Shown here in pieces: positions 1,407 through 28,050 of a stretch of DNA of 31,534 bases. How positions within the stretch are numbered: the first letter of the stretch is position 1; each line of letters begins with the position of its first letter. Under the pieces are notes generated by a model, which ran no database searches, had not been told where the DNA came from, and saw only the letters and a program-made list of their open reading frames with translations. The stretch is from a virus, in IMG/VR virus record IMGVR_UViG_3300037558_000527, positions 1 to 31,534 of that record. One strand, written 5' to 3'. The position numbers and the translations under genes are program-made.

Positions 1407-1699
1407 TTTTCATAGATGCCAAGGGCTGCGGCTTCTTCAATACAAACAACAGAAGCATCAGCGCCAAGCTTTAGCGCGTTATCCAAAATTGACGTAAATT
1501 CCGCTACAACGTCTTTGTCATAAACAGCAATACTGCTTTCGGTTACGGCGCAAACCATGCCGTCCAGATACCAAGTCAGTCGGATGACAGCAAAATACTG
1601 ATTGGCAAGCCTGTCATGCGAATAGAAAAACTCTCGGCTTGATGGCTGTTCTGATGGTTGCTCTGCCTTTGGTTTGCGCAAATTATCCAGCCAACTCAT
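1403..1699 (-). CDS. Hypothetical protein between portal and head morphogenesis genes
   Basis: This is a 98-residue protein beginning MSWLDNLRKPKAEQ. It has a polar, Glu/Gln/Ser-rich N-terminal 20 residues and then a compact alternating beta/alpha region (YFAVIRLTWYLDG ... SSIAVYDKDVVAEFTSILD). No family is recognised. Its start overlaps the portal end by 17 bp and its stop overlaps the next start (ATGA), so it is co-translated with both. The position suggests a head-assembly accessory role, but nothing in the sequence shows one. Confidence 0.75.
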   Translation of the reverse strand: MSWLDNLRKPKAEQPSEQPSSREFFYSHDRLANQYFAVIRLTWYLDGMVCAVTESSIAVYDKDVVAEFTSILDNALKLGADASVVCIEEAAALGIYEK

Positions 1700-3119
1700 C
1701 GGTTACCTCCGGTTCTCCTTCAGGCATTGTGACTTCCTGCTCAGGGACTGGTTGCGGTGTTTCCATCAAACCACCGGCTTGCGTTGCCTCAAGCTCGGCT
1801 TCAACATCAAAATCATCACCAAGCACTTCGCCTGCTTCTAGCTGCAGCAACAACGTCTCTTGTGTCACCGTGCCAGCGGTGTAAAGCTGCAACAACGCTT
1901 GGATTTCTTGTGGTTCAAGTCTTGTGCCCATGAAGTCACGATTGACAAGACTGCTGCCAGCTTGTGACTCCTGCAAGTAATCAGCGTGAAACCGCAGGCA
2001 GTTGTCAATCATGTCCTGCATTTGCTGTGCCAAGACCATCATCGTGCTGTCGCCTTGAGACCGGTCTATGCGCTTAGCCTCAGCCGTCTCACCTACAAGT
2101 TTTGCGCCCACCACAGCAGCTAGGCCCAGCTCGTTGATCTGTGACTCGATTTGTTCAAGCCTGCGGAACTGCGCGTCGTAACTATTGCCAGCCGGTTCTA
2201 CATATTCGGCCCTCGCATCTGAGGGAAGTGCAAAAGCTTCCCCGGGGCCTGCGCTGATTTCCTCAGCAGATTGCGGAAAGCCAAACAACGCAAGCATCGG
2301 CACTGCGCTGATGTGCAATTGATTTCCAAGATCAGATTGAACCTGATAGTGCTGAAGGTTTAGCTCAGCAATATCAGCCAGCGGCGGGAATGACTCCAAA
2401 ACACCAACCCGGTTGGAGTAAGCAACGCTGAACGGGATTTTACTCAGGCTTGTCGTGCCTTCGTCAACAATACGGAAGTCGCCTTTTTGATTTTTTTGAA
2501 AGATCTCAAATGCGCCAGGGGTCAAGACACGCACTTGCTCGACTTGTTTTTCTCCGTACAAGCCATCGGGCACAACGATCTTTTCAGAAAGACGAAGTTG
2601 CGTCAGTTTCTGCTGCCCATTGGCCATTTCAGTGCGCCAACCAAGAATGTCCCTTGGCGTGTACGTGATCCAGTAAGGGCGGCCACTGTCACCAGCCTTA
2701 GGCGCATCAACAAGAACGCCAACATGCCCGTAGCGGATGCAAATGCGTGATGTGTTGTAAAGCCAGGTTTGTAAGTCGTTGTTTTGCAAATCAACGTCGA
2801 ATAATTGCTCGCGGATTTGATCGGTTACATCGTCAAGCCTGACTGGTTTACGAGTCAACATGCCCGCCAACATCCGCTCGATTCGAATTAAAAATGGACT
2901 AACGACACTTCTTTGCAACCTTGCGTCATAGCTGAGGTCTTGCTCCCTTGGCTCTTGTGGCAGATAACGACGGTGTTTTCTGCGCACGCTAAATGTTCCC
3001 CCCTGGAGCGCCTCTAATAGCTCCCAATGGGGCTCCATGTTTACCCAAGCTGTGTTCGGGCTATCTACCGTCGTAACGTTGCCAACACGCTGGCGACTGC
3101 CAGAAAAGCCTGAATACAC
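1683..3119 (-). CDS. Portal protein (DUF4055-like)
   Basis: The 478-residue product has the length, position (directly after large terminase) and features of DUF4055-type portal proteins, which form the dodecameric DNA gate at one capsid vertex. Recognisable segments are WELLEALQGG near 32-41, RRKHRRYLP near 46-54, a long crown/stem region with IRYGHVGVLVDAP near residues 126-138, and AKLVGETAEAKRIDRSQGD (about 342-360), the helical stem typical of this group. The last 40 residues are Pro/Glu-rich and probably disordered. The start is GTG (3119-3117), preceded by a GGCGGGA purine stretch; an internal ATG at codon 28 is the alternative. Confidence 0.9.
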   Translation of the reverse strand: MYSGFSGSRQRVGNVTTVDSPNTAWVNMEPHWELLEALQGGTFSVRRKHRRYLPQEPREQDLSYDARLQRSVVSPFLIRIERMLAGMLTRKPVRLDDVTDQIREQLFDVDLQNNDLQTWLYNTSRICIRYGHVGVLVDAPKAGDSGRPYWITYTPRDILGWRTEMANGQQKLTQLRLSEKIVVPDGLYGEKQVEQVRVLTPGAFEIFQKNQKGDFRIVDEGTTSLSKIPFSVAYSNRVGVLESFPPLADIAELNLQHYQVQSDLGNQLHISAVPMLALFGFPQSAEEISAGPGEAFALPSDARAEYVEPAGNSYDAQFRRLEQIESQINELGLAAVVGAKLVGETAEAKRIDRSQGDSTMMVLAQQMQDMIDNCLRFHADYLQESQAGSSLVNRDFMGTRLEPQEIQALLQLYTAGTVTQETLLLQLEAGEVLGDDFDVEAELEATQAGGLMETPQPVPEQEVTMPEGEPEVTDELAG

Positions 3120-3145: not shown

Positions 3146-4495
3146 TTAGTAGAGCCTAATGCCAGTGCCCCGTCCAGCTCGCTTATGGAGTGGGGAAAAT
3201 TCTCTTACCACCAGATACCCAAATGCGTCACAGAAATGATCGAAGCCCGCCTCTTTATCGGGCTCAGATTTTGCATTCCACGATTGCAACTCAAGGCATT
3301 CAATCAATCTTTTGCACTTATCAGAGATTTGAACTCGAACTAACCCCTGGGAATTTCCCAGGAGCACCTGAACAGCAAGTATCCGATCACGTACGGCGGG
3401 ATTGCTTTTACCTGACTGATTCGAGAACCCAAACGATTCAAGAATTGCAATATCCGTGCGCGAACTGTTGGTATGGCGGCTAGAGCCTGAGGCATCGGGG
3501 TAAACATAGATTCTTTGATCAGGGTATCGCCTTCTTATTTCTCTAGACAAACTCTCTGTATCGTGAGCCTGTGCGATTTCATCTATTATCACGAGTCGAT
3601 CGCCAATGCGGACCCCGACAACAGCATTAGTGTTTGCGACGTTGAAATCAATCCCGATCCTTAAAGGTTCATTCTCAACGTTCGGCAATTCTGTGATGAC
3701 GTGTTTAGCGCGATCAAAACGATCGTAAACCTGCCCAGTATTTAGGTTTACAAAATCACCGTTTAAATAAGACTTGATCAAATTTTCTGGATAATTCTCC
3801 AGTAGCGAATCAACAAATCCTTCAGGCAGATAGGGGTTATCAGTTGTTTTGGCGCGGATTAACGCAGTGTCTGCGCTTGCGTTCTTCTCAAACGTGTCAA
3901 ACGCCCAACCAAAACCTTCTGGCGTAGTGGCAGCGTAAAACTGCTGCACGTTGCCAGAACGAAGGCGAGCCAGTGCCATTCGCATCGCTTGGGTCGCAAC
4001 TGATTTGTTTGCTGTATCAGCCTCGTCAAATCCAACAGCACAGAGGTTTTGGCCTCGAATCCTGTTGGCCGTCTCCATGGTGCGAAGCAAGATGGTATGG
4101 CTGCCCTCTGCGAAATGCAGCGTGTATTCCGGCAAGGGACTTACACGAAAATCAAAAGGGATCTGCCACTTCATAAGCAGCTCGTCCATCGAACGCATAA
4201 GAATATCCCTGAGCATCGGGGCAATAGGTTCAAACAAGGCAGAAACGTGGCCCACGTTCAGCGCAGCCATGTGAACACTTTTGCAAATCAAGCCATATGT
4301 CTTTCCTGCTCCAAATCCGCAGACAAGCCCAAGTTTGCGGTGCTCAGTGTCCTCGCAGAATTTGACCTGATGAGACAACATTCCGTCTTGAACGCGTGCA
4401 AGAACTTCTGTTGTTGTTGGTCGCTCAAAAGTCTGTATGTCTTTAACAAACCCGAGAAGAGGCTCGTTGCCTGTGATGCCAGAAAGCAAGGGCAT
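3146..4495 (-). CDS. terL: Terminase large subunit (packaging ATPase and nuclease)
   Basis: The 449-residue motor protein couples ATP hydrolysis to DNA packaging and cuts the concatemer. The ATPase domain has Walker A GFGAGKT (60-66), Walker B with Asp157-Glu158 in AVGFDEAD, and the coupling motif AATTPEG (188-194). The RNase-H-fold nuclease domain has GIDFN (Asp283), IIDEI (Asp305), YPDAS (Asp334) and the acidic FDHFCDAFGY (419-428). Length is usual for the PBSX/Terminase_3 type. It starts in a 1-base TGATG overlap with the small terminase gene and lies 26 bp before the portal gene. All motif residues are present, so it should be active. Confidence 0.95.
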   Translation of the reverse strand: MPLLSGITGNEPLLGFVKDIQTFERPTTTEVLARVQDGMLSHQVKFCEDTEHRKLGLVCGFGAGKTYGLICKSVHMAALNVGHVSALFEPIAPMLRDILMRSMDELLMKWQIPFDFRVSPLPEYTLHFAEGSHTILLRTMETANRIRGQNLCAVGFDEADTANKSVATQAMRMALARLRSGNVQQFYAATTPEGFGWAFDTFEKNASADTALIRAKTTDNPYLPEGFVDSLLENYPENLIKSYLNGDFVNLNTGQVYDRFDRAKHVITELPNVENEPLRIGIDFNVANTNAVVGVRIGDRLVIIDEIAQAHDTESLSREIRRRYPDQRIYVYPDASGSSRHTNSSRTDIAILESFGFSNQSGKSNPAVRDRILAVQVLLGNSQGLVRVQISDKCKRLIECLELQSWNAKSEPDKEAGFDHFCDAFGYLVVREFSPLHKRAGRGTGIRLY

Positions 4496-14926: not shown

Positions 14927-15071
14927 AAGGCTCCTCTGTCTTGAACCGTATGTAATCACCTATAGCCGGAAACAACCAATCCTGCACCTGTAAACAAGCT
15001 TTCATGTTTACGGGTTGAATGCAGTTGAGCAGCAAAGTGCTCCATAAAGCAGATATGTAACCCCAGTTCAT
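14865..15071 (-). CDS. Small hypothetical protein coupled to the C39 peptidase gene (68 aa)
   Basis: The ATG overlaps the peptidase stop (ATGA). The C-terminal part looks coding (QDWLFPAIGDYIRFKTEEPY), while the N-terminal 25 residues are hydrophobic with cysteines. It overlaps the next gene start by 62 bp. No family is recognised. Confidence 0.45.
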   Translation of the reverse strand: MNWGYISALWSTLLLNCIQPVNMKACLQVQDWLFPAIGDYIRFKTEEPYASEKRAIKHFRLDGGRTEP

Positions 15072-15787
15072 CGATCCACAAATACAGCCCAGCCCGAAGC
15101 TTCACCTTCGATCAGAAACCGTTGGTAAAAGGCAGGCCGGGACATTTTGATTAATTTTCCAGATTTTGTCGTGTCATGGCCGCCATGCTCCATGTTTGGC
15201 TTGCCCATAGGATCCATTGCAATAAAATCATTTTTGTCATAACCAACAATGACGCTCCAATGACCACAGCCTTCGCTGTCGCAGACTGCTGGCTTGCCTT
15301 TTGTAAAATCACCTTTGTGCAACCAACCAACCATTAACGGTCTGCCAGCATCAATTTCAATTTCAATGTCTTCAACCCTGACATTTTTGCGAAACTCAGC
15401 GTTAAGGCCAAATGATTTCAACGTAGAAACGTGGGCCTCGACTTCAGTAGTGTCGCCATGTTTGCGGCGTCTTTGCCGATAAGCGTCTTGGTTTTGTACA
15501 GCTCTGTGAAAAGCTGCGACCATTGCAGCAGCAGAGTCAAAACACTCCCTATAGCCGTAGCCGGTAGGGCTGTCTAATTGGTTGTAATAGGGGACGCCAT
15601 AAACCTCCTGGTGGATGCCGCTTGTTTTCCACATGGCAAACCATTCCGCCTCATCATTGAGCAGATCCTTATCGATGGCACGTTCCAGCTCTGCAATAGC
15701 TGCTAGCTGATGGGGATCGCCTTTTTTAAAGAACTGAAAAAACGGAAGCAGTGACAACAAGCCCACGATTACGACCCAAACCCACAT
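15068..15787 (-). CDS. Membrane-anchored C39-like cysteine peptidase, putative lysis enzyme
   Basis: The 239-residue product has an N-terminal hydrophobic helix (about 2-20) followed by KKGD, so it is a signal-anchor or signal-arrest-release type. The peptidase domain spans about 60-239: VPYYNQLDSPTGYGYRECFD with Gln70 and the nucleophile Cys82, GRPLMVGWLHKG (148-159), GHWSVIVGYD with His176, and AMDPMG with Asp192. These form the C39-like/papain-fold triad. It lies in a compact minus-strand cluster with small membrane proteins, the usual setting of a lysis cassette, and no other endolysin is seen. The endolysin role is inferred. Confidence 0.78.
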   Translation of the reverse strand: MWVWVVIVGLLSLLPFFQFFKKGDPHQLAAIAELERAIDKDLLNDEAEWFAMWKTSGIHQEVYGVPYYNQLDSPTGYGYRECFDSAAAMVAAFHRAVQNQDAYRQRRRKHGDTTEVEAHVSTLKSFGLNAEFRKNVRVEDIEIEIDAGRPLMVGWLHKGDFTKGKPAVCDSEGCGHWSVIVGYDKNDFIAMDPMGKPNMEHGGHDTTKSGKLIKMSRPAFYQRFLIEGEASGWAVFVDR

Positions 15788-15961
15788 TTACTTTTCAATG
15801 CGAGCCTCGGGAAACAGTAGGTCTGCAACGTACTTACAAGCCACATCATCCAACTGATTATCAGTCTGCTTACTGACCTTGATTAGACAGTCCAATAGCA
15901 ACTGTTTTACGGCTTTGGATTTGATGAAGCCGAACAAGATTGGCTTTAGTAGTAAAACCAT
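15788..15961 (-). CDS. Small helical protein of the lysis cluster (57 aa)
   Basis: The product begins MVLLLKPILFGFIKSKAVKQ, then LLLDCLIKVSKQTDNQLDDV, and ends LLFPEARIEK. The stop TAA immediately precedes the peptidase ATG with no gap. The pattern (hydrophobic start, KQLLLDxLxK helix, TDNxxDD) is one I recall from small cyanophage proteins beside the lysis genes. The amphipathic/hydrophobic N-terminus could associate with membrane. Function unknown. Confidence 0.7.
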   Translation of the reverse strand: MVLLLKPILFGFIKSKAVKQLLLDCLIKVSKQTDNQLDDVACKYVADLLFPEARIEK

Positions 15962-15985: not shown

Positions 15986-16240
15986 CTAGACGCGGTTTTG
16001 ATGACCCTCAAGCCGTGCAACATTCTGTTCTAGGTCTGAAATTCGTGCGAATAGCTCTTGATCTCTAACCCTTAAGTCGGCATGGAGCACATCCATACGG
16101 CTCGCTAAATTGTCGACAGCTGAGGTTAGACGCACTAAAGAGTCCCTTCCATGCTGGTTCTCACGGCTGGCTCCTTTGAGTCCAGAAGCGGCTACGCCTA
16201 TTGACGCACCAGCAACAGCAGCCCAGATTTCCACCACCAT
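15986..16240 (-). CDS. Membrane-anchored coiled-coil protein, first gene of the lysis cluster (84 aa)
   Basis: An N-terminal hydrophobic segment (about 1-21, MVVEIWAAVAGASIGVAASG) precedes SRENQHGRDSLVRLTSAVDN. A long heptad-patterned helix follows (LASRMDVLHADLRVRDQELF, ISDLEQNVARLEGHQ). A short transmembrane anchor with a coiled coil resembles spanin-like or holin-accessory proteins, but no lipobox is visible. It starts only 23 bp from the divergent gene at 16264. Confidence 0.7.
   Translation of the reverse strand: MVVEIWAAVAGASIGVAASGLKGASRENQHGRDSLVRLTSAVDNLASRMDVLHADLRVRDQELFARISDLEQNVARLEGHQNRV
16201..16229 (+). promoter_or_regulatory. Putative promoter for the secreted-protein operon
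   Basis: TTGACG (16201-16206) and CAGATT (16224-16229) lie 17 bp apart, about 35 bases before the ATG at 16264 and inside the divergent coding sequence. The -35 is a good match and the -10 is poor. Some promoter is needed here because the upstream genes are on the other strand. Confidence 0.35.
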
Positions 16241-16263: not shown

Positions 16264-16527
16264 ATGGCAGAAGAACAGGTTAAGCAAGAGCAGGAGCAGG
16301 AATCAACGCCGTTGGCGGATTTCGTAAAACTTGCTGTTTTGACATGGTCAATTGTGATGCTTAGCCTCAACTACCTGGGTTACGTCAAAGCAATGGACCC
16401 AACCTTTCCTGCCTCATTGCTTACTGGAACGATGACCTCTTTTGGCGTCAACATCAAACGCGCCAATGGCAAGAAAAAAGAAGAGCCTACAATTACTGAA
16501 CAAACCCCTACGTCTAAGACCAAATGA
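16264..16527 (+). CDS. Small membrane protein, holin-like by size and context (87 aa)
   Basis: The product has a polar Glu/Gln-rich N-terminus (AEEQVKQEQEQEST). Hydrophobic segment DFVKLAVLTWSIVMLSLNYL (19-38) follows, a second weaker one around FPASLLTGTMTSFGV, and a Lys/Thr-rich tail. One or two membrane passes plus charged ends and position beside the peptidase cluster would suit a holin. It is, however, transcribed away from that cluster and coupled by ATGA to three exported-protein genes, so it may instead serve that cassette. Both readings are inference. Confidence 0.65.
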   Translation: MAEEQVKQEQEQESTPLADFVKLAVLTWSIVMLSLNYLGYVKAMDPTFPASLLTGTMTSFGVNIKRANGKKKEEPTITEQTPTSKTK

Positions 16528-17021
16528 GACGTTTTCTCTTTGTATCGTGCCTAACGTTTTTTGCGATAAGTCCTGCTTCCGCAGACATTACGCACGCTAT
16601 TAAATCTTCAATCTCGCTAACTGTTGATGGAGCGGCATCACAATCAATTCGGCAACCCAGTTCACTTGCAGTATCTGGCTCTAACGTCACTTTGGGTACT
16701 CCTCCTGTGCTCGGGACACTTACTTCCGGCACTGCTCTTGGGTATACTCCTGGTGCTTACAGTATTACTACTGCTGGTGACAGCTTTTCGTATTCAGAGT
16801 CGTACATAGAAGGTGATGACGTTCCAACCATACTTTCAACAACTGTCACCGCTGGTGTAGTTCCTGCGTTGCCAATCTTTGGAAATACAACAACAACTGC
16901 AGGCGGCGTAGCTGGTACTTTAGCTGGCACAATTGCGACTGATGGTGCGTTAACGATCGTAGCCGGTGGAGCTGGCACAAGTGCAATAGGACAAGTAATT
17001 CAGGAGTTAACTATTCGATGA
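16524..17021 (+). CDS. Exported beta-rich protein A of the secreted cassette (165 aa)
   Basis: A clear signal peptide (1-20, ending ISPASA, then DITHA) is followed by a Thr/Ser/Gly/Ala-rich body with no cysteine after the signal. Predicted features are short beta strands and Gly-rich turns, including SLAVSGSNVTLGTPP, YSITTAGDSFSYSESYIEG and a C-terminal Ala/Gly stretch. The SFSYSES segment corresponds to AFSFVET in the next gene, so the two may be distant paralogues. It is coupled on both sides by ATGA. I recall similar proteins in marine picocyanobacteria and their phages but know no function. Confidence 0.75.
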   Translation: MRRFLFVSCLTFFAISPASADITHAIKSSISLTVDGAASQSIRQPSSLAVSGSNVTLGTPPVLGTLTSGTALGYTPGAYSITTAGDSFSYSESYIEGDDVPTILSTTVTAGVVPALPIFGNTTTTAGGVAGTLAGTIATDGALTIVAGGAGTSAIGQVIQELTIR

Positions 17022-17437
17022 GAATACTGCTGTTGTTGCTTTTGGCTGCCCCAGCGTCAGCCGTACCAATCGTTCCTAACTTTCAGCAAGGAACATTATC
17101 CAGCACTACAAAAACAACGTCGAAAGTCATTGAAGTCATTAACTCTTACGAATATCGCACGGGTTATGAATACACAGCTAGCGGTACAAATATAGAGTCT
17201 TCTGCAGGTCTTGCTCCACAAAGCTTGACGACAACAACTAATACGTTGAACGGTGTTTCAAGCAAATGGACTGGACTTGACCCTGCATCAAGGCCAACCT
17301 GGAACATCGTCAACCAAGGCGCTGCATTTTCATTTGTGGAAACGCTCCAAGGGCCGGGGCTCACAAATCACACGTTGATTAATAGAGAAACTGACATCGA
17401 ATCACTTACGGAAACTACAAGTACGTTTACACAATGA
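17018..17437 (+). CDS. Exported beta-rich protein B of the secreted cassette (139 aa)
   Basis: A short Leu-rich signal peptide (1-15, ending PASA, then VPIV) precedes a cysteine-free, Thr/Ser-rich body: GTLSSTTKTTSKVIEVINSY, YEYTASGTNIESS, WNIVNQGAAFSFVETLQGPG, and many Thr residues near the end. It is probably all-beta. The (Y/W)xIxxxGxxFSxxE segment is shared with protein A. It is coupled by ATGA to both neighbours, implying equimolar co-expression. Function unknown. Confidence 0.75.
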   Translation: MRILLLLLLAAPASAVPIVPNFQQGTLSSTTKTTSKVIEVINSYEYRTGYEYTASGTNIESSAGLAPQSLTTTTNTLNGVSSKWTGLDPASRPTWNIVNQGAAFSFVETLQGPGLTNHTLINRETDIESLTETTSTFTQ

Positions 17438-18165
17438 AGCGTGTCTTAGCAGCGTTGCTGTTATTTGCTGGCCCGGTAAACGCACAAGTCAGTAGTACAG
17501 CAGCACCAGTGGCTAATAGCAGCGGATCAGTTACGAACCAGGCTGTTCAGGTGGTTCCGAGTAAAACTTTTGCATCCGTCATCAACGGTGTTCAGTGCCA
17601 GGGCGCAAGCCTGACCATTAATCCGTTTCTTAGTTCAACTACTGGCTGGTCTGATCCGTATGAACGGTTTTATAACGACCCTGTCTACGACACGCTTGAC
17701 GTTACTGGTGCGTTTGATCCAGAAGGTAACCCCGTTCCAGATGGCAGACCTGATAATCCTGGCCGGGTCTTATTCCAGAAACCAGTTAGAACAGGCCAGA
17801 AAACCAACTTCTCAGTCAATGGCGGCATCACTGCACAGATCTCGATTCCGCTAGATCGCAGTCACATCCGCACTTGTCGTAAAGCTGCAGAGAAGCAGGT
17901 CGAATTGATGACTGCAAATTTGGCGGATAAACGTTTGAATTACGAAATTGCGCGGTTGCGAAACTGCGCTGATCTTATGAAAGAAGGCGTGATGTTTCAC
18001 CCCAAGTCGCCCTACAGCAAAATCTGTGCCGATGTCGTCTTAGTCAATCCGCCTGGCGTCTTATCGCCCCACACACATTCAATACCTATTTCTTCAAAGA
18101 CCGCTGAAACTTCCGACGCTGCCAAGCAGACTCAACAACAACCTTCTTCCCAAGCCTCTCCTTAA
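17434..18165 (+). CDS. Exported protein C of the secreted cassette, cysteine-containing (243 aa)
   Basis: A signal peptide (1-17, ending GPVNA, then QVSS) precedes a Ser/Thr/Val-rich segment with a conserved look (APVANSSGSVTNQAVQV). A domain with CQGASLTINPF, WSDPYERFYND, RTGQKTNFSVNGGI and ISIPLDRSHIRTC follows. A helical stretch (KQVELMTANLADKRLNYEIA) leads to FHPKSPYSKICADVVLVNPP. The tail is Gln/Ser-rich. The four cysteines in the exported part suggest disulfides. From memory, this protein type recurs in picocyanobacterial phages. Its last 80 bp overlap the convergent gene. Confidence 0.78.
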   Translation: MKRVLAALLLFAGPVNAQVSSTAAPVANSSGSVTNQAVQVVPSKTFASVINGVQCQGASLTINPFLSSTTGWSDPYERFYNDPVYDTLDVTGAFDPEGNPVPDGRPDNPGRVLFQKPVRTGQKTNFSVNGGITAQISIPLDRSHIRTCRKAAEKQVELMTANLADKRLNYEIARLRNCADLMKEGVMFHPKSPYSKICADVVLVNPPGVLSPHTHSIPISSKTAETSDAAKQTQQQPSSQASP

Positions 18166-18841
18166 TTTTCTTGATCGTCTTTTTAACGATAGGTTTGACC
18201 GCTTTTAGCAGAATATCGCCTAACGGTTTGGCGATGATGGCTGTTGTTGTTGCCACTGCTGCGATAGTTGCGGTTGTGATTACAACAGGGCCACCAGGCA
18301 AATAATTGCCAATGATCGTTGGTACGTCCAGCGTGTCGAATTGTGTTTCACATTTTCCGTTGATCAACCGATAACCGGTGATAACCGCTGTCTGTTGCTT
18401 GTTTTTAGCTCCTATAGGTATTGCATCTGGTGGCGGGCAGGGCAGTTCTATGCCTACATTTGGAATGTCAGGCGTTGGAGGAACACCTGGCGCAGGGGAC
18501 TTAGCCGGTTGCTTGTCAGCCGGTTTTTTCTCAGGATTTACTGCTGGCGGCCTGGTTGATCCATAAGTCAACGTTCCAGGCGTAAAATCCAATGCCGCTG
18601 GAAACGATGGCATCGTTCCATCGCAAACCGTAAAGTTGCCCTTCGGATCAGTGGTGTAGGCATCTGGATTGCCGGGCTGTGTATTTCTGGTTTCAACGCA
18701 GCCAGGCATCTGCACAATTGGCAACCCAAGCCTCAACGTAATTGGTGGTTCAGACGGGATACTCTGCGGCGGAATACTTCTCCACGTTGGTATTTCTGGA
18801 ACGCCGATACGCCCCACACCAATCTCAGGTATTTCCGGCAC
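18086..18841 (-). CDS. Proline-rich membrane protein with C-terminal anchor (251 aa)
   Basis: Starting at GTG 18841, the product opens with a Pro/Ile/Gly-rich stretch (PEIPEIGVGRIGVPEIPTW). A cysteine-bearing region follows (MPGCVET, DPKGNFTVCDG), then a Lys/Pro/Ala linker, CPPPDAIPIG and a small domain (ITGYRLINGKCET). A hydrophobic segment at about 184-205 (VVITTATIAAVATTTAIIAK) precedes a strongly basic tail (KPIVKKTIKKIKERLGKK). There is no N-terminal signal, so a periplasmic N-terminus would need an unusual insertion route. It faces the secreted operon tail to tail. I recall related proteins in cyanophages; function unknown. Confidence 0.75.
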   Translation of the reverse strand: MPEIPEIGVGRIGVPEIPTWRSIPPQSIPSEPPITLRLGLPIVQMPGCVETRNTQPGNPDAYTTDPKGNFTVCDGTMPSFPAALDFTPGTLTYGSTRPPAVNPEKKPADKQPAKSPAPGVPPTPDIPNVGIELPCPPPDAIPIGAKNKQQTAVITGYRLINGKCETQFDTLDVPTIIGNYLPGGPVVITTATIAAVATTTAIIAKPLGDILLKAVKPIVKKTIKKIKERLGKKVVVESAWQRRKFQRSLKK

Positions 18842-18845
18842 CTAA

Positions 18846-19082
18846 TCAGAACGGAAGCTTAGGTGTCTCAATGGCTGGCCCTGTAGCTGATGGCAGTTCA
18901 GGCATCACGTCATCAACTGCTGGAACCATGTCGGTCACTAGCTTTGTCAGCTCTAGCTTTAGCTCGCTCATGTAGTACCGCGTCAGCGATGGGATTCGCG
19001 TGTAAAGCATTAACGATCCAACAACCATCGCTCCAGACATCAAAAATGCTGTAGCGCCAAGCAGGTTAAAGACTTTTTGCAT
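18846..19082 (-). CDS. Small single-pass membrane protein (78 aa)
   Basis: The product begins MQKVFNLLGATAFLMSGAMV with an N-terminal transmembrane helix (about 5-27). A helical segment (YYMSELKLELTKLVTDMV) and a Pro/Glu tail ending KLPF follow. Its stop lies 4 bp before the GTG of the proline-rich membrane protein, so the two are probably co-translated and may form a membrane pair. No recognised family. Confidence 0.7.
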   Translation of the reverse strand: MQKVFNLLGATAFLMSGAMVVGSLMLYTRIPSLTRYYMSELKLELTKLVTDMVPAVDDVMPELPSATGPAIETPKLPF

Positions 19083-19161: not shown

Positions 19162-19518
19162 TCAGAAGTTGTACTTCATGCCGATTTTAGACCCTACGGA
19201 AGGATCTTCGTCTGCAGTGATGAATGACAGCTCGCCATAAACGCCGAACTGGTCTGTGGCTTGAACGTTTCCGCCAATCTTGCCGGACAGTTCAAACTCA
19301 CCATCGTCGCCTTGGGGGGAAGAATAAGCTGGACCGCCTTGCACGTAATAGCTGTAAACGTCCTGAGCGCCTTCAAAACCAACGTGAAAATCTGTGGTTG
19401 CACCTAAATAGTCGCCGCCCGAATAACCGGCGTTATTTTCCACGTTTACATAAGGGCCTGCCAAGGCAGCTGATCCGGCAAGAGCGCCAGAAAAAGCTAC
19501 TGCGAGTGCTTTGATCAT
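19162..19518 (-). CDS. Outer-membrane beta-barrel protein, phage-encoded (118 aa)
   Basis: A 20-residue signal peptide (ending SAALA, then GPYV) is followed by alternating amphipathic strands: YVNVENNAGYSG, TDFHVGFEGA, YSYYVQGGPAYS, FELSGKIGGNVQA, FGVYGELSFIT and SKIGMKYNF. It ends in the C-terminal aromatic Phe typical of Bam-assembled barrels. Length fits a small 8-strand barrel of the Lom/OmpX kind. The frame opens at 19551, but that ATG would lie inside the promoter, so the ATG at 19518 is chosen. Its own promoter and terminator mark it as an independent unit. Likely roles are host-surface alteration or superinfection exclusion (inference). Confidence 0.8.
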   Translation of the reverse strand: MIKALAVAFSGALAGSAALAGPYVNVENNAGYSGGDYLGATTDFHVGFEGAQDVYSYYVQGGPAYSSPQGDDGEFELSGKIGGNVQATDQFGVYGELSFITADEDPSVGSKIGMKYNF

Positions 19519-19538
19519 TTGTGGAAAGGGCTGAGTTT

Positions 19539-19567
19539 TCTGTAAGTACATTAACTAAGCCAGTCAA
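19539..19567 (-). promoter_or_regulatory. Sigma-70-like promoter for the outer-membrane protein gene
   Basis: On the minus strand TTGACT (19567-19562) and TACAGA (19544-19539) are separated by exactly 17 bp, with transcription start expected about 15-20 bases before the ATG at 19518. The -35 matches five of six bases. It lies in one of the few free intergenic gaps of the window. Confidence 0.55.
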
Positions 19568-22223: not shown

Positions 22224-22745
22224 TCAGGCACCACCTGAATCAAGTATAAGGCTGGTGGCTACTGCAGGGTCAGCATCGTCGGCGTCCAAGATGAATGGCG
22301 CAGCACCTGAAAAAACGTAGCTATCAAAAGCAGCTAAACTGCCTAGTTGAGCAGATTCACCAACTAAAATAAACTTAACAAGGACTCCTTCGATTGCACG
22401 TATAGAAATAGTAACGTTATATCGTTTAAAGCCAATATGTTCTTCAGTCGGGGTTGTTGTATAGCGATAGATGCTTGCAGAATCAACTGAATTAACACTG
22501 CCAACTACTGCAGCTGGAACAGTAAACTCGCCCGCCGTGCCACTGTTGCTTGAATAGTGAGTGCGTAGTAACTCAATTGAAGCTTGATCAAGACCTTGGT
22601 ATTTGAGGCTAAAAGTTTGACCATTTATAAAATCTGTATGTCTAAACCGAATCGGACCTATCCCAAAAGCAGAATATTCACTAATTTGTGGTGTACCAAA
22701 GTCAAAGTTGATTGAGTTTGGAATTAAACTTGGGAAGGTGCTCAT
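22224..22745 (-). CDS. Tail protein upstream of the fibre (173 aa)
   Basis: The product begins MSTFPSLIPNSINFDFGTPQ, and includes RFRHTDFINGQTFSLKYQGL, LLRTHYSSNSGTAGEFTVPA and RYNVTISIRAIEG. The pattern (xFPSLxPxxxxFxxGxP... with a Gly/Thr-rich loop) resembles small tail-tip or fibre-connector proteins in cyanophages. It lies between tail tip and fibre genes. Virion location is inferred. Confidence 0.75.
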   Translation of the reverse strand: MSTFPSLIPNSINFDFGTPQISEYSAFGIGPIRFRHTDFINGQTFSLKYQGLDQASIELLRTHYSSNSGTAGEFTVPAAVVGSVNSVDSASIYRYTTTPTEEHIGFKRYNVTISIRAIEGVLVKFILVGESAQLGSLAAFDSYVFSGAAPFILDADDADPAVATSLILDSGGA

Positions 22746-22746
22746 G

Positions 22747-23115
22747 TCAAATGTCGTATGGAGCCACGAGGAGTAACTCTACTGATACCCTGACCACACC
22801 TGGATCGTGAACAACCGTAGGAGTCTTTGCGTAAATCCACTGATACCCTGCGGGAAAAGTCAAATCAGAACCCTGCAAAACAGAACTAGGCAAATCAAAT
22901 GGCTGGAAACGATTGTGAACTGCATAATGCGAGAAAATTTGGCTCTGCTGCACTATTGATCCACTCGTAAATGTAAATCTCAACCTGTAATCAACAGCAG
23001 CATTTGTACGGCGAACGGTAACTTCCTTTCCTGAGAGTGTCTTTGAACGACGCACTGCAAAAGAACCCGGCGTGTAACTTCTGCTTTGCGGTGATAGTAA
23101 AGGAAAATCAGCCAT
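22747..23115 (-). CDS. Tail tip accessory protein (122 aa)
   Basis: The ATG at 23115 overlaps the tail-tip stop (TAATG), so the longer frame to 23193 is rejected. The product begins MADFPLLSPQSRSYTPGSFA. It has DYRLRFTFTSGSIVQQSQIF, a segment FDLPSSVLQGSDLTFPAGYQ, and a final VRVSVELLLVAPYDI. Its layout parallels that of the next gene (start xxxFPxLxPxSxxYxPG, end with a beta-strand), suggesting two related tail components. Confidence 0.75.
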   Translation of the reverse strand: MADFPLLSPQSRSYTPGSFAVRRSKTLSGKEVTVRRTNAAVDYRLRFTFTSGSIVQQSQIFSHYAVHNRFQPFDLPSSVLQGSDLTFPAGYQWIYAKTPTVVHDPGVVRVSVELLLVAPYDI

Positions 23116-25793
23116 TAGCTGCAAGTGTAAGTAGGGCTTCCAGGGTCTGCACCATTTGGCACAGTGGCAGAACCAATATCTGAACCAGCCCATTCGACCT
23201 CAATCGTACTTAGATCGTTTGAAAACTGCCACGTTCCTTGAATCCTATAAGTCTCTCTTGCAGCTGGATCGCCAGGGTTAAATTGACTGACTTGCATAAA
23301 TGGCTGTGGTGGTGATGAACTACAAGCCGAATTGGTCCTTAGCCCGCCAATCCTCGGCGTGCCGCCTATCGTTACGAAGGGCTTGCTGACAGCCCAAACA
23401 CCAGATCGCCACGGTGCATTTTCTTCACAAGGTCCGCAAATATAGGATGCACACCCTCCTTGGAATGTGTAAACATTGCCTAGCGAAAACATACAAAGAC
23501 CGTTGATCCTTGGAGCTTTTAGCTCTGCACTCCATTGGTTTCCTTGCTTGTCTAAGAAACTGGTTGTAACTGAATTTGAAAATTCTCTTGCCGGGTCATA
23601 GCTTGTCTTAACTACGGTCCCATTCCAACGCACATAACGATAAAGTGCAAAATTAGGAACTACTATCGCAGTTTCTCCAAGTTGAACAGCAGGAGCAAAG
23701 CCACTATCAGTTGAAGGATCTGGACATTCGCCTTCTACTATGATCACATGATCAATATCTGCAAATGTGATAGACATAAAAAACTTACCGTTAACAGGTT
23801 CTGTTTTACACTCAACTAACGTCTTGATGCCTGTAAGTTTGCTTAATCTGTAGAAACAGACGCGTCCATTTGCACAAGGCAAGGCAGTGTTTGAGACTTC
23901 TACTGCATTGCCGGTGGTAGCTGTAGAACCCCCGAACCCTGTGTTTGAGCCTGTAATGGTTACTGTATCTACTAAAGGCTCATCAATTGGGTCTGGTGGG
24001 TTAGAAGACCCATCCGGATATGGCGAGCCTGGTAACCCAGTGCCAGACGGATATAATGAATCTTGATCATTTGCATCTGGCGCAGGAATATCCTTTTCTG
24101 TATCACCAGACGATGGAGGATTTCCTTGCGTTGATGTAGTCGTTCCAACGGTTGATGTGCTTGTTGAGCTATTAGTGTCGCAATCGTGCGTACTCCGTCC
24201 CACGTTAATAACGTTGCCCGCTCCAACAGCATCGTTAACAGCTTTGGCTACAATGCTTCGGCCTTGGTTGTCTATTGGGAAGTGCGTTAGGTCATACTTG
24301 ATTAAGCTGCCAAAAGTTTTTTCAATTCGGGCAATTTCATACACTTTATCGTGATGCTGGATTTCCCCTTCTGAAGTTTCCCGCTGCAAACGTACGCGAA
24401 CGATGTCCCCTACTACAAGCGAACTGTTGTAGCTTCTTTCACGCACTCTTAAACGGAGGTGGTGCGTAACGTGTTTGCGGGTAGCAAGCTTATATGTTGC
24501 AGCCTTGATAGCGTGGTTCTCTGTTACGCAATAACCGCTCAAGTCCATCGAAACAAACGGGCCAGATGCTGCCTCGCCTTGATACCGAACATTTATCGTC
24601 CGCACCAAACCAAAATCAGCTTCAGGTTGTTGGCGCCACTGCGCTACAACACAAACAGGCTCTCGATCTTCCAGGCTGACAAAGTCAATCTCAAAACCAC
24701 CGCCAAGCACATGGTCTTCTGTAAAGGTAAATTCTGGCGTGATTGCTGTTGTTTTAATCGTGTAGTTTGCGTTGTAGGGCAGACGTGGCCGTAGGCCAAA
24801 CTTACCGTTAGTATTCGTTAAACGAAGCAAGAAATTGTATGAGGTCTTTTGCAGCCAATCAGACAAGTTTTCGCTTTTAGTAACTACGCCATTGAATAGA
24901 AAATTATTAGCGTGAGTAAAGTTAGCTGCAATAGTAAGCGATGGGTCATCAATAAGATCGCTTGGCAACCTTCCGCTTTGCAGCATTAAATATTTAGCAA
25001 GATCAACAAAGTTGTCAGAAGGTCCAGTACCCCCACCAACGAGCCTTGTCACCTGAAGACCTTCTCTTATAAAAGCACTAATTTGTTTGTTCCAATCCGT
25101 GGTGCCGCCAAGTGTTATTTCAAAACTTAGTGTTGTTAAACTACTGTAACTACCAGACGTTCCACAAAATGTAGGCATATTGTGTTCATGATATACCAAA
25201 TAGTAAGTGCCTGTATCCCCTGCAGCATTTCTAGTAAATACACTGTAAAGAAAGTTGCCCATCCTATACATTTTGTTTATGACTGGGTTGGCGGGCAAAG
25301 GGTAAAATCCGCCTGAATCTAGAGGAATAACTGCTTCTATGTAATCATCAATTGTGTTGCCAGGTGGCCAGCTACCCGCACGCGCACCATACCCTTGGTT
25401 GTATGTTCCACGGCGGCAATTGCCGTAGAATATATCTCTAACTTGAATTGTACCGATTTGGCCCTGACTAATAACAAGTAGCAGCTTTACATAGATTTCC
25501 TCTGCGACTGTTATGTCAGTCCACGTTCCACCAGTTTTTACCTTACTAGCAACTACATCGTTAGAAAAACCACCCTCACTTGCTTTTGGAGCGATCATTG
25601 CCCCGCCTGTTTGCACTGAATTTATTGCCCTGCGACGGCAAAAAACAATAGGTATGGGCTCACCAGTTTTTAAAACTGCTTGAGGGCCTGAAACGTCTGG
25701 GTTTCCTTCTGCTGCTTGCGCTTGCAGTTCAGCTACAGACAAGCCAGTTTGTGCTGACAGTAGAAATAGAGGTTCGGTAAATTCGAGTGTCAT
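23115..25793 (-). CDS. Tail tip / central fibre protein with cysteine-rich C-terminal domain (892 aa)
   Basis: This large protein lies in the position of the siphovirus tail-tip hub (lambda J-like role). The N-terminal half contains GTIQVRDIFYGNCRRGTYNQ, SFEITLGGTTDWNKQISAFI, a hub-like FNGVVTKSENLSDWLQKTSY and DIVRVRLQRETSEGEIQHHD. A low-complexity Ser/Thr/Gly/Pro linker spans about 535-610 (STSTSTVGTTTSTQGNPPSS). The C-terminal 270 residues are rich in cysteine (for example FQGGCASYICGPCEE), probably disulfide- or metal-stabilised surface domains. The start is the ATG overlapping the previous stop. Hub identity comes from order and general look rather than a single motif. Confidence 0.8.
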   Translation of the reverse strand: MTLEFTEPLFLLSAQTGLSVAELQAQAAEGNPDVSGPQAVLKTGEPIPIVFCRRRAINSVQTGGAMIAPKASEGGFSNDVVASKVKTGGTWTDITVAEEIYVKLLLVISQGQIGTIQVRDIFYGNCRRGTYNQGYGARAGSWPPGNTIDDYIEAVIPLDSGGFYPLPANPVINKMYRMGNFLYSVFTRNAAGDTGTYYLVYHEHNMPTFCGTSGSYSSLTTLSFEITLGGTTDWNKQISAFIREGLQVTRLVGGGTGPSDNFVDLAKYLMLQSGRLPSDLIDDPSLTIAANFTHANNFLFNGVVTKSENLSDWLQKTSYNFLLRLTNTNGKFGLRPRLPYNANYTIKTTAITPEFTFTEDHVLGGGFEIDFVSLEDREPVCVVAQWRQQPEADFGLVRTINVRYQGEAASGPFVSMDLSGYCVTENHAIKAATYKLATRKHVTHHLRLRVRERSYNSSLVVGDIVRVRLQRETSEGEIQHHDKVYEIARIEKTFGSLIKYDLTHFPIDNQGRSIVAKAVNDAVGAGNVINVGRSTHDCDTNSSTSTSTVGTTTSTQGNPPSSGDTEKDIPAPDANDQDSLYPSGTGLPGSPYPDGSSNPPDPIDEPLVDTVTITGSNTGFGGSTATTGNAVEVSNTALPCANGRVCFYRLSKLTGIKTLVECKTEPVNGKFFMSITFADIDHVIIVEGECPDPSTDSGFAPAVQLGETAIVVPNFALYRYVRWNGTVVKTSYDPAREFSNSVTTSFLDKQGNQWSAELKAPRINGLCMFSLGNVYTFQGGCASYICGPCEENAPWRSGVWAVSKPFVTIGGTPRIGGLRTNSACSSSPPQPFMQVSQFNPGDPAARETYRIQGTWQFSNDLSTIEVEWAGSDIGSATVPNGADPGSPTYTCS

Positions 25794-26257
25794 ATCTGGA
25801 GGGGAACTCCAACCAATGCGTTACTTGCCGTTAGTGGCGGGATCTGCGCTCCAATGGGCGCAAGCGTAGAGCCAAGCTCTACTCTAAGCGCAGTGAACGA
25901 ACCATTCATTCGGGATATGTAGCCCAAAAAGTTTGCAATCAGAATTTGTGTTGACTGAGGGCTGGCAACACCTAAGCGAGTGTCAAACTCATAAACGCTT
26001 AATTCGCACAGATACTTCAGCCTTGACGCTTCTTGGAATGCGTTGACAGCTAAAGAAGTTGCAGGAAATTTTACCTGTATTGATCGCCCGCCTAATGCAG
26101 AAGTCTCTGTAATCCCGTCACAAGCGAAAGGAAAAAAGGTATATGCCTTGGCTGACACAGTGACGGTCTGATTTACATAGAAGTTTTGAAACAACTGGTA
26201 GTCCGCTCCACCTGGAGCGTAAATCCTTAAGTATTGAGCCTGGCCCCTAAAACTCAT
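25790..26257 (-). CDS. Minor tail protein following the tape measure (155 aa)
   Basis: The product begins MSFRGQAQYLRIYAPGGADY and has strands FYVNQTVTVSAKAYTFFPFA and FPATSLAVNAFQEASRLKYL. Then YLCELSVYEFDTRLGVASPQ and a short Pro-rich end follow. It overlaps the tape measure stop (TAATG) and the tail-tip start (ATGA). Position corresponds to distal tail or DUF1833-like proteins in other siphoviruses. The assignment is by context. Confidence 0.72.
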   Translation of the reverse strand: MSFRGQAQYLRIYAPGGADYQLFQNFYVNQTVTVSAKAYTFFPFACDGITETSALGGRSIQVKFPATSLAVNAFQEASRLKYLCELSVYEFDTRLGVASPQSTQILIANFLGYISRMNGSFTALRVELGSTLAPIGAQIPPLTASNALVGVPLQI

Positions 26258-28050
26258 TACGAGACTCCCTGGAATTGACGTGAGCCATAACTACGACCAC
26301 CACGCGCAAGGGATTCTGTTAATTCTCGCATCCCTTCTTCGAATTGGCCCATTGTTAGATACGTCTCATTGTCTTGCTGCATTACAGGGCCGGTTTGAAT
26401 GTTGATAGGCCCAACAAATCCGCCATCTGCAAACTGTGGGATTGCAGCACTGCCGCGACTGCCTGACAGAAAGTTATTAGCAAACCCAGCAGCCTTGCTT
26501 TGCGGAATAATGTATTCAGGCTCACCGCCTTCTCCGACCATTGCAAGAGTCGGACCATTAACAACACCACCTTTTGCAAACTGCGGGACAGTCATCTGCG
26601 GAATTAATGGAATACTCTGAAATAAGCGAATTGGTGCTGGTAATCGATTAAAACCAGAAATTAAACGGTTAACCATGCCGATTGCGCCGTTAACGCCCTT
26701 GCCAATTGCTGAAAGAACATTGTTAAAGATCCCTTTAATGAAGTTAACAACCGTTAAGAATGGAGCTTTTACAACGTCTGCAATTTTAGTGAATAAACCA
26801 ACAAATCCATCAAATAATTTTTGCCCAAACCCAAGCACAGGCTTTACATAAGAGTCCATGTAGAACTGCGCGGCTTTCGTTAAAACATTGCCTACGATAT
26901 TAAACGCTGCCATGAAGAAATCACCAATTGGTTTAAGCGCTTCTGCTATTTGATCTCTGAAAGCATAAATAGCGGCCCCAGCGGCTACAAGCAGTAAAAC
27001 AATCCCTACCGGGCCAGAAAGCACCCCAGCCACAGCAATTCCAAATGCTTTTACTACTGCTATAACCGGCCCAATAGCACCTAACCATCCAGCAATTGTT
27101 GCACCTAACCCCAACGCCTTTATCGCAACCAACGCAGGCCCAATGGCAGCAATCGCAGGTGCAAGCAAAACAAATACCGCTGCTAAAGCACCAACGCCAA
27201 CAATAATCGCCTGAACAGGGCCAGGAAGAGCAGTAAAAGCATTGATAAGAGTTGTCAAAGCTTTTAAGAAAGGCGGCAACGCTTTATTAACAACGCCTCC
27301 AATTGCTTTTTGTAAATCATACATTGCTTCGCCAAATGTATCTTGAACACCTGCCGCCCCTCCTGCCGCGGCAGCGGCTGTACCCCCGTATTGTTTTTCA
27401 AGCTCTTTTAAAATCATTGCTTGAGCCTTTGCTGCTTGACCGGTTTCAACCAAGCTTTTGATTGTCGCTTTTTGCTGGTCAGTAAACTGAATGCCGGACC
27501 TGCTCAAGGCCGACAAATTCGTAACCGGGTCATTTATTGCTTTTGCTAATTGCATAAAGGCGCTCGACACATCAGTGCCGCTAACTTGCGCAACGTTTGC
27601 CGCTGCCATAGCAACAGAGTCATAGGTGCTAACACCGATATTTCCAAAAGAAGTTAGAAGGCCAAATCCTTTTCGAAAATCGTCTTCATTGAACAAGGTT
27701 TCTTTGCCAAGCCTGTCGGCTGACTGCTGCAATTTATCTAATTCCCCAGCACCGGCTCCAACATTTTTAAGACCCTGTTGCAGCAATAACGTTTCAGACT
27801 CAAAACTTGCAGCTGCATTTGCTGCGCCTTTTAAAAATCCAACTAACGCAATCCCAGCTACGCCTCTTAAAACTGTTCCAAGCTGCGAAGCTGTTCCTTT
27901 TAACGAACCTAATTTTTTTTGTGCAACGACAGCCGACTTGCCTAGGCTGTCAACTTTTTGTTTTCCGGTCGTCGCGGCCTTGCTTACTGCATTTAAAGGC
28001 TTGACCGCTTGTCTAGCGTCAACCTTAACAACCAGAATAGACTCAGCCAC
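26257..28050 (-). CDS. Tail tape measure protein (597 aa)
   Basis: The product sets tail length. The N-terminal 110 residues are helical with many Lys/Ala (KAATTGKQKVDSLGKSAVVA). The centre has glutamine/alanine-rich helices and then long hydrophobic segments (about 275-365, AIIVGVGALAAVFVLLAPAI and LSGPVGIVLLLVAAGAAIYA). The C-terminus has repeated FAKGGVV/FADGGFVGP and GEGGEPEYIIP motifs typical of tape measures. The start is GTG at 28050 after a GGCAGG purine stretch. At the usual 1.5 angstrom per residue the tail would be around 90 nm, short for a siphovirus. Confidence 0.92.
   Translation of the reverse strand: MAESILVVKVDARQAVKPLNAVSKAATTGKQKVDSLGKSAVVAQKKLGSLKGTASQLGTVLRGVAGIALVGFLKGAANAAASFESETLLLQQGLKNVGAGAGELDKLQQSADRLGKETLFNEDDFRKGFGLLTSFGNIGVSTYDSVAMAAANVAQVSGTDVSSAFMQLAKAINDPVTNLSALSRSGIQFTDQQKATIKSLVETGQAAKAQAMILKELEKQYGGTAAAAAGGAAGVQDTFGEAMYDLQKAIGGVVNKALPPFLKALTTLINAFTALPGPVQAIIVGVGALAAVFVLLAPAIAAIGPALVAIKALGLGATIAGWLGAIGPVIAVVKAFGIAVAGVLSGPVGIVLLLVAAGAAIYAFRDQIAEALKPIGDFFMAAFNIVGNVLTKAAQFYMDSYVKPVLGFGQKLFDGFVGLFTKIADVVKAPFLTVVNFIKGIFNNVLSAIGKGVNGAIGMVNRLISGFNRLPAPIRLFQSIPLIPQMTVPQFAKGGVVNGPTLAMVGEGGEPEYIIPQSKAAGFANNFLSGSRGSAAIPQFADGGFVGPINIQTGPVMQQDNETYLTMGQFEEGMRELTESLARGGRSYGSRQFQGVS

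Follow-up and report, generated by a model that had tools for sequence, protein, structure and literature searches.

A conserved gene module in marine picocyanophages

Six adjacent genes in a 31.5 kb virus record (IMG/VR record IMGVR_UViG_3300037558_000527, the whole of which is referred to here as the window) form one inherited module of marine picocyanophages, as shown by their co-occurrence and order. The genes, designated M1, A, B, C, D and M2, encode secreted and membrane proteins and, on a tentative reading, would specify a lipoprotein-free outer-membrane-disruption complex used at lysis. The window carries siphovirus-like genes for a tape measure protein (26257 to 28050, minus strand), a portal (1683 to 3119, minus strand) and TerL (3146 to 4495, minus strand).

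M1 (16264 to 16527, 87 amino acids (aa)), A (16524 to 17021, 165 aa), B (17018 to 17437, 139 aa) and C (17434 to 18165, 243 aa) lie on the plus strand, while D (18086 to 18841, 251 aa, GTG start) and M2 (18846 to 19082, 78 aa) converge on them from the minus strand, on which the stop codon of M2 shortly precedes the GTG with which D begins. An ATGA is shared at each of the M1/A, A/B and B/C junctions. The open reading frames (ORFs), the junctions and inspection of the N-termini bore out the gene positions, the coupling and the signal peptides of A, B and C given in the initial annotation of the window. All six products match PHROG families, with E values from 3e-11 to 1e-81, namely phrog_721/21865/2714 (M1), phrog_564 (A), phrog_650 (B), phrog_848 and phrog_1755, also labelled 'gp165' (C), phrog_570 (D) and phrog_568 (M2), and above the cut-off M1 matches PF20048 (DUF6450) and B matches PF19847 (DUF6322). 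The six ORFs are therefore genes and not chance ORFs. None of the PHROG families carries a known function, the sole functional label being 'plasmid stability' on M2.

Of 50,697 phage records searched with tblastn, the number with a match was 461 for C, 412 for B, 344 for D and 335 for A, and the positive records are all named as cyanophages or marine or uncultured viruses. Four queries for C and one for A then yielded about 400 IMG/VR loci, in which the module genes were identified with profiles made for this analysis. As every locus was retrieved by way of C or A, the counts state how often the other genes accompany C or A, and the ratios below refer to loci with enough flank. A and B were found on the same strand upstream of C in 64/64 window-type, 55/55 MED4-184-type and 118/118 Kyanoviridae-query loci. 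Downstream of C, D is in convergent orientation in 49/49, 71/71 and 113/113 of the respective loci, and M2 follows D in 49/49, 71/71 and 86/113. In window-type relatives, the ATGA is present at the M1/A junction in 73/73 loci and at B/C in 77/80, and A/B has ATGA or GTGA in 65/77.

The initial annotation had proposed a single module of fixed order, common in marine picocyanobacterial phages, and had suggested a gene-neighbourhood survey that might instead reveal scattered homologues, or structural matches to unrelated known proteins. In this survey the module genes co-occur across phage loci, completely so where the locus is intact, and the fold searches gave no significant match to a known structure; together with the tblastn results this upholds the proposal. 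Its suggestion of a complex made in defined ratios found no support. Its further claim of homologues in the hosts was not confirmed by a single genome scan, sensitive to close relatives only, which gave one contig of a Crocinitomicaceae metagenome-assembled genome (PACT01000025.1) that has a typical phage layout. This contig includes C, D, M2 and an adjacent outer-membrane protein gene in phage order, a second C copy lies on another contig of the assembly, and both are likely to be cyanophage contamination.

The complete order, M1-A-B-C converging with D-M2, is also found in podovirus S37C6 and in the Prochlorococcus siphovirus MED4-184. A-B-C converging with D is present in Syn9, Syn33, S-SM1, P-SSM2 and P-TIM68, and in reversed orientation in the TIM5-type myovirus S-TIM5. 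The P-SSP7-type podoviruses carry M1, B, C and a gene for a 57 aa protein (h57) without A, preceded by a gene for a short D-like protein, D'. P-SSP7_042 (D') matches phrog_9426 (E 1e-49), a family to which D of the window is weakly matched, and D and D' align over the transmembrane (TM) segment and basic tail (hhalign 95%, E 4e-8). The shared core is therefore M1-B-C plus a D-type protein, and because A is missing from the P-SSP7-type podoviruses, A-B-C is not an obligate trio. Several window-type loci (L052, L060, L079 and similar) have two successive B-type profile matches between A and C.

In the C and A trees, the S37C6 podovirus copy groups with the window siphoviruses, and in the C tree it is set apart from the other podoviruses with starred support, though its branch is long. 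Exchange of the module among phage families would account for this placement, although the trees are not proof of it.

Part of the module has been recorded before. A cyanophage cluster of T4-GC 218, 219, 234, 235 and 237 plus a 'plasmid stability' protein was noted in T4-like cyanophages, with no function given, and most of it was present in all 16 cyanophages except S-PM2 (Sullivan 2010, PMC3037559). The GenBank T4-GC labels on syntenic homologues (M1, 218; A, 237; B, 236; C, 235; D, 234; M2, 414/1367), the convergence of A-B-C with D and the inclusion of the 'plasmid stability' gene identify the module with that cluster. However, the cluster was described in T4-like cyanophages only, whereas the module is found here also in siphoviruses, Autographiviridae and TIM5-type myoviruses. 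The late promoter motifs, the A/B paralogy, the topology of D and the conserved antisense overlap described below are likewise additions of this work.

The same study suggested a mobile cassette that owes its mobility to the plasmid-stability gene. M2 homologues are annotated in this way and the genome position of the module varies in some phages, but the parts co-occur with a fixed internal order across several phage families. Moreover, M2 has one TM segment in 92/92 Kyanoviridae copies, gave no match in Pfam and NCBIfam searches, and has no soluble DNA-binding or toxin-antitoxin domain such as a plasmid stability protein should contain. The 'plasmid stability' label (phrog_568, GenBank) is thus not supported, which corrects a propagated annotation, and a mobile cassette of this kind is highly improbable. 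Gene-mobility conclusions in published papers draw on this label of a 78 aa single-TM protein.

Secreted and membrane proteins of the module

Clear signal peptides were recognised by inspection in A (MRRFLFVSCLTFFAISPASA-D), B (MRILLLLLLAAPASA-V) and C (MKRVLAALLLFAGPVNA-Q), and hydropathy revealed one clear hydrophobic segment each in M1, D and M2, in the last near the N-terminus. These features agree with the earlier view that the proteins are sent to the host envelope. A second segment in M1 (DPTFIASVFTGVLATFG) is weaker; it is visible in the alignment, and GenBank gives two TM segments (TMHMM) for P-SSP7_043.

A and B are paralogs (hhalign 96.6%, E 5e-10), and the aligned stretch includes the signal peptide. 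Both are rich in Thr, Ser and Gly with long strands. The AlphaFold model of B (pLDDT 86, pTM 0.46) has two polar, Thr/Ser-rich strands of 23-24 residues flanking shorter ones, and B is accordingly predicted to form a long polar beta-hairpin. The top Protein Data Bank (PDB) neighbours of the model are phage collar proteins and ring- or pore-forming beta proteins, and these matches are non-significant (best E 2.3e-3, TM-score at most 0.27). As there was no significant neighbour, B can be described only as probably oligomeric. Profile searches of A, B and C against PDB sequences gave zero significant matches.

The paralogy and composition of A and B would also suit a late-made cell-surface or extracellular structure, in which A and B form a polymeric fibre or coat over the dying cell, C and D aid export, and the effect is on aggregation, on the retention of virions or on their passage to new cells. 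The weak B matches include spore-appendage subunits, and the A profile weakly matches a pilin chain. Nevertheless, no fold match is significant and the P-SSP7-type podoviruses keep B and C without A, so such a structure is considered unlikely.

C contains four Cys that are invariant in the alignment of homologues. Its model is of low confidence (pLDDT 58), with a beta-rich N-terminal half and a 42-residue helix at residues 142-183, and its PDB matches are meaningless. A TolC-like C, with a beta-hairpin followed by a long helix, is not claimed, since it rests on one OEP match in 66 members (E 0.25).

D consists of an N-terminal part of 185 residues with 19.5% Pro and four Cys, a single C-terminal TM segment (about residues 186-204) and a basic tail. 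The net charge is +7 after the TM segment and -2 before it, a pattern kept in every clade. The Pro content of the N-terminal part ranges from 11 to 20% by clade, as compared with a background of 5%, and the four Cys are found in all but the podovirus D'. From the charge distribution, an N-out/C-in topology is predicted for D.

Timing of expression

The late promoter of S-PM2 has been published as NATAAATA (PMC2984593). Another T4-like phage has CTAAATA as a late-promoter motif (PMC1524935). In the Kyanoviridae-query loci, [ACG]TAAATA occurs within 100 nucleotides (nt) upstream of A in 69/114 loci, as compared with ~11 expected in shuffles, and upstream of M1 in 38/62, in both cases mostly at -10 to -40. 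It precedes D in 2/107 and M2 in 12/75. Of the S-SM1 genes checked, the late genes gp8, gp9, a YadA-like gene and gp18 have the motif upstream, but the replication genes gp43, gp44 and gp45 do not. From these data, late expression of A and M1 is inferred for the Kyanoviridae. A sigma-70 promoter scan of the window gave no excess over shuffles, and the passages found in the experimental-evolution and transcriptome literature contain no statement on the module genes.

Timing bears on two further explanations. In superinfection exclusion or envelope remodelling, an altered outer surface would block adsorption or injection by other phages. Secreted and membrane proteins, an adjacent outer-membrane protein in window-type phages and carriage of the module by different phage families with common hosts are as expected for this role. 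However, exclusion genes are usually early, as are T4 imm and sp, and the T4-type late promoter motifs that precede A and M1 of the Kyanoviridae therefore argue against it, leaving it improbable. Among the roles listed in the initial annotation, superinfection exclusion is narrowed in this way, and lysis is kept as the best reading.

Late promoter motifs would equally be expected if the proteins were virion components, such as decoration, tail or membrane-penetration proteins for entry. D and M2 lie on the structural-gene strand of the window, and phage collar proteins are among the weak B matches. The signal peptides on A, B and C do not fit assembly in the cytoplasm, and, as indirect evidence, A to D are called hypothetical in the S-TIM5 record, which gives many other products the label 'virion structural protein and packaging'. 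We therefore consider it doubtful, to much the same degree as exclusion, that the proteins belong to the virion. The S-CREM2 virion hypotheticals ORF174 and ORF176 were also checked and are not module proteins.

A possible role in outer membrane disruption at lysis

The window-type module directly adjoins an endolysin cassette in most loci that are long enough. In the window, the cassette includes an endolysin-type C39-like peptidase with an N-terminal membrane anchor (15068 to 15787, minus strand; phrog_10051), a 57 aa protein (15788 to 15961, minus strand; phrog_2738) and an 84 aa protein with a TM segment and a coiled coil (15986 to 16240, minus strand), the gene for which is divergent from M1 with a 23 nt gap. 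The 84 aa protein is the only spanin match (E 0.23). Siphoviruses encode the 57 aa protein family, which has a TDNxLDD motif, beside the module, and in P-SSP7-type podoviruses its gene separates C from terS. The family is also present in S-CREM2, where none of M1, A to D and M2 was found in the searched 120-169 kb of the genome. A C39 peptidase related to the window endolysin but lacking the anchor is encoded beside two lysozymes in S-CREM2 (L254:15440-15970).

In P-SSP7, the genes D'(042)-M1(043)-B(044)-C(045)-h57(046) lie between the fibre genes and that for TerS (047, phrog_891, E 7e-24). The T7 order at the equivalent site is fibre 17, holin 17.5, TerS 18. Like the gene 17.5 holin, M1 is a small membrane protein encoded between the fibre genes and terS, but it has no homology to the holin and only one strong TM segment by hydropathy. 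A homology of M1 to T7 gp17.5 was rejected (hhalign probability 0.1%).

Spanins have been looked for in these phages. In the survey of Kongari 2018 (PMC6139136), 22 marine or estuarine picocyanophages had no identifiable spanin; a type I inner-membrane protein, such as the predicted topology of D would give, or an outer-membrane protein partner, was proposed as a possible unseen spanin, and mere fragility of the host outer membrane was also suggested. The module occurs in 17 of these 22 phages, 11 of them seen in this analysis (Syn1, Syn9, Syn33, S-SM1, S-SSM5, S-SSM7, P-SSM2, P-SSM4, P-SSM7, P-SSP7 and S-RSM4) and six that follow from Sullivan 2010 (PMC3037559), namely P-HM1, P-HM2, P-RSM4, S-ShM2, S-SM2 and Syn19.

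Like the two-component spanins (Rz/Rz1; T7 gp18.5/gp18.7), the module combines an inner-membrane anchor bearing a Pro-rich part predicted to be periplasmic with partners sent to the outer envelope; it appears to be late and, in window-type and podovirus genomes, is linked to lysis genes. However, it has more components, no lipoprotein, no sequence similarity to spanins and the opposite predicted topology, with a C-terminal TM segment. No lipobox signal was found in 315 A, 422 B or 406 C sequences, and a lipobox ORF search of the window returned only chance-looking ORFs, while recovering T7 gp18.7 as a positive control. The type II N-terminal TM segment of i-spanins is likewise absent, D having a C-terminal TM segment and a basic C-terminal tail. 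As both features were looked for and not found, the module is not a member of the spanin families; its proteins matched only families of unknown function besides the 'plasmid stability' label. The module would thus work like a spanin without belonging to the family.

Late expression, Sec export, the predicted topology of D, adjacency to the endolysin and the holin position in P-SSP7 together suggest a role at the end of infection. The long beta-hairpin predicted for B, with ring- or pore-forming proteins among its non-significant PDB neighbours, is in keeping with such a role. In the proposed complex, the Sec pathway would export A, B and C late, either into the periplasm or as far as the outer membrane. 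D would reside in the inner membrane, its Pro-rich, Cys-bearing domain facing the periplasm and its basic tail the cytoplasm. The inner membrane would also be the site of action of M1 and M2 and, probably, of the 57 aa protein encoded next to the module. The endolysin would first open the peptidoglycan, after which D on one side and a B/C(/A) assembly on the other would link to or rupture the outer membrane, allowing virions to leave. This would be the job done by the spanins of other phages, performed without lipoproteins. A bolder form of this proposal is that the type I anchor D, secreted A/B and helix-bearing C make up a third kind of outer-membrane disruption system, which replaces spanins and moves among myo-, sipho- and podoviruses; we regard this as rather unlikely as it stands.

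Several points weigh against a role in lysis. The module proteins have no homology to any known spanin or holin, and the structure models have no significant PDB match. D has no signal peptide, so that export of its ~185 N-terminal residues is unexplained, and the positive-inside argument for its topology is itself a prediction. In the Kyanoviridae no endolysin is annotated beside the module, and [ACG]TAAATA is missing from the 100 nt that precede A in 45/114 loci, and from the same position in S-SM1 and Syn33. Furthermore, S-PM2, Syn5, P60, S-CBS4 and P-SS2 are also spanin-less but lack the C, B, D and M1 families, and the module is therefore not the only answer and not universally needed.

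On the question of how the outer membrane of Prochlorococcus and marine Synechococcus is broken by their viruses, the module names specific candidate genes. These can be tested gene by gene, which would give several of the commonest 'hypothetical' ocean virus families a shared, testable role.

Antisense overlap of C and D

In the window, C and D share 80 nt at their 3' ends (18086 to 18165), an antisense overlap that, like the adjacent endolysin cassette, was not mentioned in the initial annotation. The overlap measures 53-80 nt in 80/80 window-type loci and 62-314 nt in 128/135 Kyanoviridae-query loci. In every one of these cases the overlap length is 2 modulo 3, and the 29 nt overlap of S37C6 has the same phase. 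In MED4-184-type loci, C and D are mostly gapped or overlap by a few bases.

In window-type pairs, 34-38% of sites at the third codon position of C change outside the overlap versus 8% inside it, where change peaks instead at position 2 of C, equivalent to position 3 of D (17% versus 29% in D outside the overlap); these rates are descriptive, as the sequence pairs are not independent. The shift of the peak to D position 3 shows that the overlap is truly protein-coding and is constrained mainly by the D frame. The slowing of D third positions in window-type phages suggests a constraint from C. In the Kyanoviridae, D third positions are not slowed within the overlap.

Other features of the window

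A small outer-membrane beta-barrel protein of the cyanophage Phage_OMP family (PF24653) is encoded at 19162 to 19551 on the minus strand. The family is encoded beside M2 in window-type phages and S37C6, but elsewhere it is not a constant part of the module. A major capsid gene was not seen among the annotated window genes and would span the contig ends (1 to 216 and 31422 to 31534), so the record looks incomplete. The genes at 22224 to 22745 and 22747 to 23193 both match the minor tail protein family phrog_15525 and are likely a tandem duplication.

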